NCBI RefSeq assembly: GCF_012290005.1
Contig: NZ_JAAXMS010000007.1
Span: 229,991-293,990 of the forward strand
From: Crateriforma spongiae
GTDB lineage: Bacteria; Planctomycetota; Planctomycetia; Pirellulales; Pirellulaceae
DNA length: 64,000 nt
Direction of reading: 5' to 3'
Below the pieces are notes generated by a model, which was given only the letters and a program-made list of their open reading frames with translations, searched no databases and was not told the DNA's origin. How positions within the stretch are numbered: the first letter of the stretch is position 1; the number at the start of each line of letters is the position of its first letter. Position numbers and translations under genes: made by a program. Of the stretch, positions 1,800 through 12,631 are shown one piece after another.

Positions 1800-2891
1800 A
1801 TGTCCAAAACCAACGCATCGCAAATACGGATGCTTTGCCCGGCAAAGCTGAATCTGTTTTTGGAATTGTGCAAACGCCGCGACGACGGATACCACGACAT
1901 CGATACGGTGATGGTCGCCATCGACCTGGTGGATGAATTGCAAATCCGTGTTCGGCAACAGCCCGGCATTTCACTGCAAGTGGACTGGTCGCCTTCGCGT
2001 CGCGAGCTTGCCAAACAACTTGGCGTCGAACCGTCTTCGAAAGCTGCGCTGGGGCCCGATGCCCATGTCGATCCATCGCTTGCACCGGAGTCCGCCGCAT
2101 CATTGCTGGACATCCCTTGCGACGAACGCAATCTGGTTTGGCGGGCCGCCGAAGCCGCGGTCAAACACTTCGATTTGGATTTCGGATTTGAAATCACGCT
2201 TGGCAAACGCATCCCGGCCGGTGCGGGCATGGGCGGTGCCAGCAGCAACGCGGCGATGACGCTGTTGGCGATCGCCACCCTGGTCGGACGCCGGGGCGAC
2301 CTTGATTCGCTGCACGGCTTGGCGGCCGAGATCGGCAGTGACGTTCCCTTTTTCTTGCGACTGCCGCCGGCCCCGGATCCGGCCGGCACGGTGCCTGCGG
2401 GCACTCCAAACGTCAGCGAAAACTCCGGTGCGTCAATTTCGCCGGTCGCCTGGGCAACCGGTCGCGGTGAAGTCTTGCAGCCGGTGCCTATCGGCGGCCG
2501 GCTGAATTTCGTCATCGTCTACCCGGCGATCGCATTGTCGACGGCTCGGGTATATCAGGGGGCCACCGTGCCCGATTCCCCAATATCTTCGGCACCACTA
2601 CGAAATAGCCTGAAGACCTTGGCGATCAGCGAAATCGGGCAATTTATGGGGAATCGGTTGACCGATCCCGCACGGAAAATTGCGTCTCGTATCGATGAAA
2701 TTCACGAATCTATGTGGCAAAGCGGTCTGAAAGGGGTTCAATTAACGGGTAGCGGTTCGGCCAGTTTCGGGATAGCGGATACCCCCAAATCGGCCGGCTT
2801 GGCGGCTGAGACGCTACGTCAGCAATTATGCCCCGGTGCAAGAGTGATGACAGCGTGTTCGTTGCCTCCGCCCGCAAAGACTCAGACGTGA
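1800..2891 (+). CDS. ispE: 4-diphosphocytidyl-2-C-methyl-D-erythritol kinase IspE
   Basis: IspE phosphorylates CDP-methylerythritol in the non-mevalonate isoprenoid pathway. The protein has the substrate-binding start PAKLNLFLEL (residues 14-23, Lys16), the GHMP-kinase ATP loop PAGAGMGGASSNAA (139-152), and a C-terminal glycine-rich segment containing LTGSGSASFG. At 363 residues it is longer than the usual 280-300. Extra sequence sits around residues 58-108, between the first strand and the ATP loop, and near 190-225. Both insertions look low in complexity. The gene follows lpxI closely and precedes spoVG, an ispE-spoVG order also known in Firmicutes. Confidence 0.93.
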   Translation: MSKTNASQIRMLCPAKLNLFLELCKRRDDGYHDIDTVMVAIDLVDELQIRVRQQPGISLQVDWSPSRRELAKQLGVEPSSKAALGPDAHVDPSLAPESAASLLDIPCDERNLVWRAAEAAVKHFDLDFGFEITLGKRIPAGAGMGGASSNAAMTLLAIATLVGRRGDLDSLHGLAAEIGSDVPFFLRLPPAPDPAGTVPAGTPNVSENSGASISPVAWATGRGEVLQPVPIGGRLNFVIVYPAIALSTARVYQGATVPDSPISSAPLRNSLKTLAISEIGQFMGNRLTDPARKIASRIDEIHESMWQSGLKGVQLTGSGSASFGIADTPKSAGLAAETLRQQLCPGARVMTACSLPPPAKTQT

Positions 2892-3097: not shown

Positions 3098-3820
3098 GTG
3101 AACATCACTGAAGTACGCATCAAGTTGATGGAATCCAGCGAAGACCGTCTGCGAGCATTCTGTTCGATCACGATCGACGATTGTTTTGTCGTTCGTGATT
3201 TGAAGATTATCGATGGGACCAATGGCCCGTTCGTTGCCATGCCCAGTCGTAAATTGGCCGGACACTGTCAACGTTGTGGCTACAAGAATCATCTGCGCGC
3301 GAATTTCTGCAACCAATGCGGTGGAAAGCTGCGGTTGGATGCGGATTTCAATGATTCGCCACAGAAGCTGTATGCCGACGTTGCCCACCCGATCAACAGC
3401 GAGTGTCGCGAGCTGATTCAGAACGCGGTGTTGGCAGAATTCGAAGCCGAAGTCGCACGTGCCAGCCAGCCCGGTTACCGTTCGCGGTACGACGACGATT
3501 TCGGTTTCGAAGACGTGAGCGCCGATGATCTGGATTCCGAGGATCGACGAAACTCGGGCAACCGCCCCGCCGCGTCGGCAAAGTCCAATGTGAACGAACC
3601 TGCGGCCAAGCCCAAACGGTCCGATGACCAGCGACAGGAAGCCACTTTGATCGATTCGGCCGGTGAAGCTGGCCCCCCGAGACCTAAGATGTCGGATCGG
3701 CCCGGTGATCGTGCCGCGGCTCAAGCGCGCACGACGAATTCCGCATCCGTGGAAGACACCGAATCTGAAAGCGACGCGGACGACCATGACGGCTTTGGTG
3801 CCGGTATCTTTGACGAATAG
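3098..3820 (+). CDS. spoVG: SpoVG family protein with inserted zinc ribbon
   Basis: SpoVG proteins are small regulators that bind nucleic acid. The start is GTG, supported by GGGAGG at 3085-3090. Residues 1-52 match the SpoVG fold (ITEVRIKL, then [20 protein letters not shown]), and the fold resumes at [13 protein letters not shown] (92-104) followed by the [10 protein letters not shown] helix. Between these halves lies a four-Cys zinc ribbon, C57-x2-C60-x10-C71-x2-C74, which the usual ~97-residue family members lack. Residues 120-240 form an acidic, Ser/Ala-rich tail that is probably disordered. The family call is firm. The effect of the insertion is unknown, but a zinc-dependent nucleic-acid contact is one inference. 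Confidence 0.85.
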
Positions 3821-9952: not shown

Positions 9953-12631
9953 ATGAATGATTCGCCGACATCGACGACCGTTGAACACCAACGGCTGAGT
10001 GAGAATGAATCCCGCCAAAAGAATTGGAAACGCTGGGGGCCCTACTTGTCGGAACGCCAGTGGGGCACCGTTCGCGAAGACTATTCGGCCGGTGGTGATG
10101 CCTGGGACGATTTCACGCATGACCAATCACGCAGCCGCGCCTATCGTTGGGGTGAAGACGGACTGCTGGGATTTTCCGATCGACAATGTCGACTGTGTTT
10201 CGCTTTGGCGCTTTGGAATGGCAACGATTCCATTTTGAAGGAACGTCTGTACGGGCTGACCGGCCCACAGGGCAATCACGGCGAAGACGTGAAGGAAGTC
10301 TATTACTATTTGGATTCGACTCCCACACACAGCTACTGCAAGGCATCGTATCGGTACCCCCAAGCCGCGTATCCCTATGAGTTGTTACAGACGCAAAACG
10401 CCCGGCGGACGTTGGACGAGGGAGAATACGAGCTTCACCATACCGGGGTGTTTGATGACGACCGCTTTTTTGATGTCCAGGCGGAATACGCCAAGGCCGG
10501 CCCGGACGACATCATGGTTCGCATCACCATTACCAATCATGGCCCCGAGGCTCATCCGATCTGGGTGTTGCCCACGTTGTGGTTTCGCAACACATGGGTC
10601 TGGGGATGCCGTCACGAAGGCTGTTCGTTAAAGCCGCGTATTGAAAAGGTCGATGGCAACGCGGTGCGGACGCAACACGAGTTCCTGCAGCCGTTTCGAT
10701 GCGAATTCGGTGATCATCCTGATGGCAATCAGGTGCCGTTGTTGTTCACCGACAACGAAACAAACCAAGAATTGCTATTCGGTGAAGAAAACTTTACGCC
10801 GTATGTCAAAGACGCCTTTCATCGCTATGTGATCAATGGCCAAACCGACGCAGTACAGCCGCGTCACTATGGCACCAAGGTCGCCGGCATGTACGCGATG
10901 ACGATTCCCGCCGGACAGTCCAAACAATTCACCGTGCGGTTGTACGATCCGGACGCCGCCGGTGCGGATTCCGTTTCAGTGCCAGAAACCTTTGACCGTC
11001 GTATCGATGAAGCCAATGCATTTTATGACGCGGTACTGCCCGACGGCTTGGAAGACGACGAACGAAGCGTTTGTCGCCAGGCCTACGCAGGATTGTTGTG
11101 GAGCAAGCAGTTTTATCACTACATCGTCAACGATTGGTTGAAAGGCGATCGTGATGTTGCGGTGCCACCGGCGCAACGCCTGTCCGGTCGAAACAGTCGG
11201 TGGCGACATCTGTATGCCAGAGACATTTTGTCGATGCCCGACAAGTGGGAATACCCTTGGTTTGCCGCCTGGGATTTGGCGTTTCATATGATTCCGATGG
11301 CTCGGATCGACCCCGAGTTCGCCAAGCGTCAGCTGACCGTGATGCTAAGAGAATGGTACATGCATCCCAACGGCCAAATCCCGGCCTATGAATACTATTT
11401 CGATGACGTGAACCCGCCGGTGCATGCTTGGGCGTGTTTGCGGGTCTATCAGGAAACCGTTCGGCAGGGCTGTCCCGATCGCACTTTTCTGGCGACGTCG
11501 TTCCAGCGTCTGTTGATGAACTTCACCTGGTGGGTGAACCAAGTCGACGACAACGGCGATAACGTGTTCGCCGGAGGCTTTTTGGGATTGGACAACATCG
11601 GCGTCTTTGACCGCAGCAAGGGGTTGCCGCACGGGACCCAGTTGGAACAAGCCGATGGAACCGCATGGATGGCGTTCTACTGTGGAACGATGTTGTCGAT
11701 CAGCTTGGAATTGGCTCGTGACGATGATTCGTATGCCGAACTTGCGTCCAAATTTTTGGATCACTTTATTCGCATCATCGACGCGATCAACACGATTGAT
11801 GGCGACGGTCTATGGGACGAAGAAGACCAGTTTTACTACGACAGTCTGCACGTCGATGGGCGTCAGGTTGCGCTGAAGGTTCGGTCACTGGTCGGACTGA
11901 TTCCGCTGATCGCGGTGCAGATCATTGATCAGGGGCTGGTCGAACAGTTGCCCGTGTTCAAGGACAAGCTGGATTGGTTTTTGAAATACCGACATCACTT
12001 GGCAAAGAATATTCACTGGGCCAGTGAAGGCTGTAGTGGCGAATCAATGCTGTTGTCCATCGCTTCAAAAGAACGCCTGCAAGCGGTCGTTGATGTGATG
12101 ATGAAGGAAACGGAGTTCCTGTCAGATTTTGGCATCCGTTCGCTATCACGATGCCACGCCCAGCGGCCTTTCGAGTTGGAATTGCGTGGCGAAACGCATC
12201 GTGTCGCCTATGTGCCCGGCGAATCGGACAGTTGGATGTTCGGCGGAAATTCCAACTGGCGAGGGCCCGTTTGGTTGCCGGTCAACTATTTGTTGATCGA
12301 AGCCTTGCGGCGGTACCACCAGTTTTACGGTGACCAGATTCAAATCGATGCGCCCGACGGCTCGGGGACCAAAATGAACCTTTGCCAGGCGGCCGACGAG
12401 ATCAACCGGCGTCTGACGCGACTGGTTCTGCGTCCAGGCGACGGGGCGGTCCGGCCATCGATGGCGGGCAACGTGCCGAGCGGGGAAAACCCGCTTTGGA
12501 ACGACACGTTGTTGTTCTACGAATACTTCCACGGCGATACCGGTCAGGGTCTGGGGGCCAGCCACCAGACCGGTTGGACGTCATTGGTGGCGACGTGCTT
12601 GGAACGCGCCGCGGTGGCGCCCAAAACGTAG
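9953..12631 (+). CDS. GH63/MGH1-like glycoside hydrolase (glucosidase)
   Basis: This large cytoplasmic glycosidase of the alpha/alpha-toroid class resembles the mannosyl-oligosaccharide glucosidase/MGH1-like group. From the ATG at 9953 it has 892 residues and no signal peptide. An N-terminal beta-sandwich-like region (about 1-370) is followed by an (alpha/alpha)6 barrel with PWFAAWDLAFHMIP, a segment containing GQIPAYEY and then WACLRVYQ, and FGGNSNWRGPVWLPVNYL near the C-terminus, as in GH63 enzymes. Acidic residues in the barrel could serve in catalysis, but I cannot assign them with certainty. The natural substrate is unknown. An upstream ATG at 9845 would add 36 residues of atypical sequence. 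Confidence 0.82.
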   Translation: MNDSPTSTTVEHQRLSENESRQKNWKRWGPYLSERQWGTVREDYSAGGDAWDDFTHDQSRSRAYRWGEDGLLGFSDRQCRLCFALALWNGNDSILKERLYGLTGPQGNHGEDVKEVYYYLDSTPTHSYCKASYRYPQAAYPYELLQTQNARRTLDEGEYELHHTGVFDDDRFFDVQAEYAKAGPDDIMVRITITNHGPEAHPIWVLPTLWFRNTWVWGCRHEGCSLKPRIEKVDGNAVRTQHEFLQPFRCEFGDHPDGNQVPLLFTDNETNQELLFGEENFTPYVKDAFHRYVINGQTDAVQPRHYGTKVAGMYAMTIPAGQSKQFTVRLYDPDAAGADSVSVPETFDRRIDEANAFYDAVLPDGLEDDERSVCRQAYAGLLWSKQFYHYIVNDWLKGDRDVAVPPAQRLSGRNSRWRHLYARDILSMPDKWEYPWFAAWDLAFHMIPMARIDPEFAKRQLTVMLREWYMHPNGQIPAYEYYFDDVNPPVHAWACLRVYQETVRQGCPDRTFLATSFQRLLMNFTWWVNQVDDNGDNVFAGGFLGLDNIGVFDRSKGLPHGTQLEQADGTAWMAFYCGTMLSISLELARDDDSYAELASKFLDHFIRIIDAINTIDGDGLWDEEDQFYYDSLHVDGRQVALKVRSLVGLIPLIAVQIIDQGLVEQLPVFKDKLDWFLKYRHHLAKNIHWASEGCSGESMLLSIASKERLQAVVDVMMKETEFLSDFGIRSLSRCHAQRPFELELRGETHRVAYVPGESDSWMFGGNSNWRGPVWLPVNYLLIEALRRYHQFYGDQIQIDAPDGSGTKMNLCQAADEINRRLTRLVLRPGDGAVRPSMAGNVPSGENPLWNDTLLFYEYFHGDTGQGLGASHQTGWTSLVATCLERAAVAPKT

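Follow-up and report, generated by a model that had tools for sequence, protein, structure and literature searches.

The window, that is, the whole stretch of 64,000 nucleotides of Crateriforma spongiae DNA that was analysed (contig NZ_JAAXMS010000007.1), carries a spoVG gene whose product has the SpoVG fold interrupted by a predicted zinc ribbon. The gene and its surroundings comprise the following features:

1800 to 2891, forward strand: ispE-like GHMP kinase gene, directly upstream of spoVG (Pfam GHMP_kinases_N/C), a conserved neighbour of ribbon-bearing spoVG genes.
3098 to 3820, forward strand: spoVG with ribbon insert, an open reading frame of 240 amino acids with a GTG start (Pfam SpoVG family PF04026 matched over residues 1-116, 96.6 bits against a cut-off of 29.6).
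3098 to 3253, forward strand: SpoVG beta-sheet half, residues 1-52, ending MPS-R51-K52 (aligned to 2i9x, 2ia9 and 2i9z).
3254 to 3361, forward strand: insert relative to canonical SpoVG, residues 53-88, formed by the ribbon and a variable linker (alignment break; pLDDT).
3266 to 3319, forward strand: predicted zinc ribbon C57-x2-C60-x10-C71-x2-C74, with conserved K63, N64, H65, R67 and N72 (invariant Cys, residue frequencies, superposition).
3362 to 3463, forward strand: second SpoVG half, a strand and the long C-terminal helix, residues 101-122 (predicted secondary structure).
3464 to 3793, forward strand: tail that varies in length, predicted disordered and moderately acidic (in the full-length model it has no secondary structure and a pLDDT of about 50).
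3794 to 3811, forward strand: tip FGAGIF, residues 233-238, with the end motif F-[GSA]-x-G-[ILV] conserved in planctomycete tails.

This protein is the only SpoVG match in the C. spongiae genome, and the GGGAGGG read directly upstream of its GTG start is a candidate ribosome-binding site. The NCBIfam equivalog for septation regulator SpoVG, NF009749, reaches 90.9 bits, below its curated cut-off of 108, its match falling in two stretches with the insert between them; since the cut-off is missed, the protein is filed as a SpoVG-family variant and not as an NF009749 equivalog. A same-strand ispE homologue lies directly upstream of ribbon-spoVG in 179 of 205 loci, and glmU lies downstream in four loci from Omnitrophota, Desantisbacteria and the PVC lineage, those with a recognisable downstream gene. 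These neighbours recall the gene order of Bacillus, ispE-purR-yabJ-spoVG-glmU. In planctomycetes and the allied phyla, the ribbon-bearing protein is the genuine orthologue of SpoVG.

Alignments to 2i9x, 2ia9 and 2i9z stop after K52 and restart at residues 87-88. A previous sequence-only reading of this DNA had described a four-cysteine ribbon splitting the SpoVG fold after PSRK52, and the open reading frame, the exact cysteine positions (57, 60, 71 and 74) and the PDB alignments bear this description out. The same reading had placed the insertion in a loop where the parent family has only a few residues, which stands, the canonical loop having about 6-8 residues (KRTPDGEFRDIAHP), so that about 35 residues are extra in the planctomycete protein. 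The tail, given there as acidic and 120 residues long, is somewhat shorter (about 110-118 residues past the helix), and its acidity is only moderate, with 28 D/E against 13 K/R in the last 110 residues.

To examine the conservation of the insert, 294 planctomycete genomes were sampled, of which 172 have a SpoVG match. The ribbon is present in 130 of the 131 orthologues collected, with exact C-x2-C-x10-C-x2-C spacing in 125 and near variants in 5; the sole exception, L048, has a frameshift inside the ribbon. In an alignment of 108 non-redundant planctomycete sequences with pairwise identity below 82% (A1), only eight columns are invariant (M48, P49, C57, C60, C71, C74, G75 and P98), and R or K occupies both positions 51 and 52 in 98%. 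The invariance of all four cysteines excludes a chance pattern, and the ribbon is indeed fixed in the phylum, with no loss of the cysteines. Besides the cysteines, the ribbons of A1 share K63 (105/108, 97%), N64 (107/108), H65 (70/108, 65%), R/K67 (88/108, 81%) and N72 (88/108), as against 5, 11, 0, 4 and 1, respectively, in 46 other ribbons of the phylum, these counts being used as frequencies and not as p-values because the SpoVG orthologues are related and Fisher values overstate their independence. In the separate Omnitrophota-side clade described below, position 63 is K or R in 93%, in favour of the contact reading given below, and N64 is found in 89%. The conservation of H65 does not extend beyond planctomycetes, a point against that reading.

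No SpoVG match was obtained in 122 of the 294 sampled genomes. Of these 122, 47 belong to the 155 genomes with completeness of 90% or more and contamination of 5% or less; its absence from these good-quality genomes suggests real loss in some lineages. Some planctomycetes also carry distant ribbonless SpoVG-like paralogues with weak Pfam hits (L054, L055 and L056).

AlphaFold2, run on A1, gives a mean pLDDT of 90.7, with local values of about 90 at residues 51-80 and 60 at residues 81-90, and the predicted model matches SpoVG 2ia9 with Z 13.8 (1.9 Å over 86 residues). The insert of this model superposes on Cys-4 zinc fingers at 0.6-1.0 Å over about 25 residues, including the TRABID NZF (0.8 Å, 26 columns), eL40 (0.8 Å, 25 columns) and ArnA (1.0 Å, 25 columns, 40% identity), matches so short that their weak E-values (about 1-3) make them evidence of shape and not of kinship. 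The insert is predicted as a folded ribbon. Neither of the refuting conditions set by the sequence-only reading, loss of the cysteines in close homologues or a predicted structure in which they do not meet, was borne out, the second being judged by superposition. As regards known families, DZR (PF12773, cut-off 27.3) is matched at 29.7 bits with the 131-residue core and 24.6 bits with the full-length protein, and at E below 0.001 in 94 of the 108 A1 members; the tandem pair of that family is not seen, the ribbon being single and the match covering profile positions 21-45. The RanBP2-type zinc finger (PF00641) scores 13.7 bits against a cut-off of 27, and of its consensus, W-x-C-x2-4-C-x3-N-x6-C-x2-C, the spacing and the Asn are present and the Trp is absent. 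The insert is read as a Cys-4 zinc ribbon in which zinc would play a structural role.

The insert was already on record: Gupta and co-workers (2012) listed it as a planctomycete-only signature indel, in a main text that mentions neither zinc nor cysteine (PMC3444138). A DNA pattern scan of genome contigs recovered at least 80 loci, most of them planctomycete, and outside planctomycetes at least 12 in Omnitrophota and at least one each in Auribacterota, Desantisbacteria and a PVC bacterium from Bugula. Phylum surveys covered these four groups. SpoVG was found in 88 of 117 Omnitrophota genomes, with a span of ribbon length in 72 of the best 80 places; in Auribacterota 14 of 44 genomes have it, and the ribbon is present in each of the 14, as it is in 4/4 of the Desantisbacteria group and 2/2 of the Bugula lineage. 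Restriction of the insert to planctomycetes is ruled out by these ribbon-SpoVGs, and the published claim of uniqueness is corrected accordingly. Three further matches of the scan (L233, L254 and L278) are chance matches. Two loci from genomes titled Actinomycetes and Bacteroidales (L238 and L251) encode planctomycete-type ribbon-SpoVG with the tail tip; they were left out of the counts of spread, the genomes probably being mislabelled or mixed metagenome bins.

When the ribbon columns are left out of the tree, eight Omnitrophota proteins that lack the ribbon fall within the ribbon-bearing ones of Omnitrophota, Auribacterota and Desantisbacteria; seven have a 6-residue loop, and L352 keeps a 17-residue Cys-free remnant. 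Such nesting suggests, on phylogenetic grounds, that one Omnitrophota clade lost the ribbon secondarily and cleanly. The AU test, on the mere 86 columns available once the ribbon is left out, is compatible with one origin of the ribbon (p 0.90). Moreover, the ribbon form is accompanied in many Omnitrophota genomes by a second SpoVG, a divergent paralogue about 85-90 residues long that has no ribbon (L373-L387).

The phage and plasmid records searched contained only canonical, ribbonless SpoVG. Among viral contigs, a 163-kb one (L421, IMGVR_UViG_3300027819_000007) carries ribbon-SpoVG at 10001-10456, less than 10 kb from a terminase large subunit gene, so that a phage seems to have acquired the host regulator. 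A divergent ribbon-SpoVG is found at 10001-10405 of a 298-kb viral contig (L420, IMGVR_UViG_3300037467_003067), neighboured by genes for glutathionylspermidine synthase, a helicase and an endonuclease.

Concerning function, S. aureus SpoVG cannot bind DNA without either K50 or R51, and its sequence specificity is set by the six residues with which the C-terminal helix opens (PMC3688583, Jutras 2013). Several RNAs are bound by Listeria SpoVG, the apparent Kd values being 129-273 nM (PMC4959528). The K50-R51 doublet corresponds to R51-K52 of the planctomycete protein, whose specificity helix, given this function by transfer from other SpoVGs (PMC3688583), begins near residue 101. The ribbon begins 4 residues past the doublet, at C57, and ends before this helix; it therefore joins the two halves of the known SpoVG binding site, which makes the change in nucleic-acid recognition proposed by the sequence-only reading plausible (PMC3688583). 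In the preferred reading, zinc would keep the ribbon rigid, as a basic knob next to the face that binds nucleic acid, where K63, R67, H65 and N72 may contribute extra RNA or DNA contacts, each SpoVG subunit gripping nucleic acid by both core and ribbon. Ribbon-SpoVG would then be a global DNA- and RNA-binding regulator with altered target choice. The specific mode of contact has been considered as well. The nearest solved RNA-binding fingers of the same spacing, of ZRANB2 type, contact RNA via two Arg and an aromatic residue. A ZRANB2-like recognition of GG agrees with the spacing and with the positions of H65, R67 and N72, but the second Arg is A or S and the aromatic position holds a His in only 65%, so that the GG-specific mode is not predicted.

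The C-terminal tip adds a further element, flagged here as undescribed. The end motif F-[GSA]-x-G-[ILV] closes 46 of 127 planctomycete SpoVGs and, considering the 89 that are tailed, 51% of them, compared with 0.01% of shuffled tails; in a second alignment, A2, to which only tip-bearing sequences were admitted, F233 and G236 are invariant. The length of the linker preceding the tip ranges from tens of residues to hundreds, as is typical of short docking motifs, and the tip is apparently such a motif for a partner protein. It is absent from every Omnitrophota-side protein examined. In 20 relatives, no other long gene was found to end in the tip, the terminal matches in long open frames being SpoVG only, and the rest of the pattern matches looked like chance. 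The likeness of this tip to the C-terminal tip of SSB is an analogy.

Taken as a whole, the reading of a true SpoVG orthologue whose structural-zinc ribbon would add DNA or RNA contacts and alter targets, and whose disordered tail, in those proteins that bear the tip, would use it to dock a partner, is given an even chance of being right. A more ambitious version, in which the ribbon would be a second site on each subunit of a composite RNA/DNA-binding SpoVG across planctomycetes, Omnitrophota and allied phyla, and in many planctomycetes the disordered acidic tail with its conserved tip would recruit a partner as the SSB tip does, the whole acting as a post-transcriptional hub, is considered rather unlikely.

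In a serious rival reading, the ribbon makes no contact with nucleic acid and serves to dock another partner, such as the ribosome, RNA polymerase or an RNase, by protein-protein contact. Zinc ribbons are also common protein-protein modules, which counts against the nucleic-acid reading; the nearest structural neighbours of the insert include the ubiquitin-binding NZF and Ran-binding fingers, a shape that often binds proteins, and the tail tip suggests that SpoVG has partners. In Listeria, furthermore, spoVG and RNase J1 act together genetically (PMC4959528). However, the specifically conserved residues of exposed type are basic (K63 and R67) and the ribbon sits beside the known DNA-binding doublet, and docking in place of nucleic-acid contact is thus tentatively kept as a somewhat unlikely explanation.

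Unlikely, too, is that the ribbon does no more than stabilise the loop as a clamp; it would then make no contacts, its zinc would be structural, and it would mark the lineage neutrally. The insert is on record precisely as a lineage signature, and one Omnitrophota clade has apparently lost the ribbon while keeping the remaining protein, which shows it to be dispensable there and counts against the contact reading; the conservation of K63, N64, R67 and N72, on the other hand, goes well beyond the folding needs of other ribbons. The possibility, raised in the sequence-only reading, of a regulator responding to zinc, or of a redox sensor switching SpoVG on and off, finds no support. Four cysteines could in principle sense zinc or oxidants, but none is exchanged in the 108 sequences, the Pfam relatives are ordinary zinc ribbons, and the Cys-free stand-in expected of zinc-sparing pairs was not seen in the planctomycete sample, where the extra copies of ribbon-spoVG type (L051-L053) retain their cysteines; the sensor is hence rejected as very improbable. 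An artefact (frameshift, chance cysteine pattern or contamination) has a negligible probability, as nothing of weight speaks for it beyond the frameshift of L048 and a few genome-scan matches with odd organism labels, and the ribbon, present in 130 of the 131 orthologues of the phylum sample, recurs in independent genomes of several phyla. As to the ribbon itself, then, we infer from its residues and position a second contact with nucleic acid, or with a partner, and not a zinc sensor.

SpoVG is a widespread and poorly understood global regulator, for which binding to both DNA and RNA is known from a small number of species. Should the ribbon take part in this binding, a set of largely uncultured phyla would use a differently wired SpoVG. 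With the insert present in planctomycetes and several related phyla, a modified SpoVG is probably at work in a large part of bacterial life. The ribbonless Omnitrophota clade, which seems to have lost the insert cleanly, provides a natural comparison by which the role of the ribbon can be tested directly.

In comparison with what has been described, the indel of PMC3444138 is the present insert, 32-36 residues long and located in this protein and this phylum; that work reports it as absent outside planctomycetes, whereas here it is a predicted zinc ribbon also found in Omnitrophota, Auribacterota, Desantisbacteria and a PVC lineage. In the literature searched, no link between SpoVG and a zinc ribbon was found, the sole co-occurrence being a tcaA paper with each term once. 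The insert is thus partly published, as an indel; its identity as a zinc ribbon, within that literature, and its span over several phyla are new.

With DZR and Zn_Ribbon_1 (PF12773 and PF13240) the ribbon shares the C-x2-C-x10-C-x2-C spacing and the CG ending but, unlike them, it is single, nested in another domain and marked by a K-N-H-x-R and N72 signature of its own. RanBP2-type fingers (ZRANB2, NZF) have in common with it the C-x2-C-x3-N-x6-C-x2-C spacing and a backbone within about 1 Å over 25 residues, whereas the SpoVG ribbon has neither their initial W-x-C nor the second Arg that contacts RNA. Finally, the SpoVG of Bacillus, Staphylococcus, Listeria and Borrelia (PDB 2ia9, 2i9x and 2i9z) shares with the ribbon form the fold, the RK doublet, the AHPIN strand and the C-terminal helix, and linkage to ispE is common to both, as is linkage to glmU outside planctomycetes. 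The ribbon form differs by the insert of about 35 residues in the loop after the RK doublet and, in planctomycetes, often by a long disordered tail with a conserved tip.
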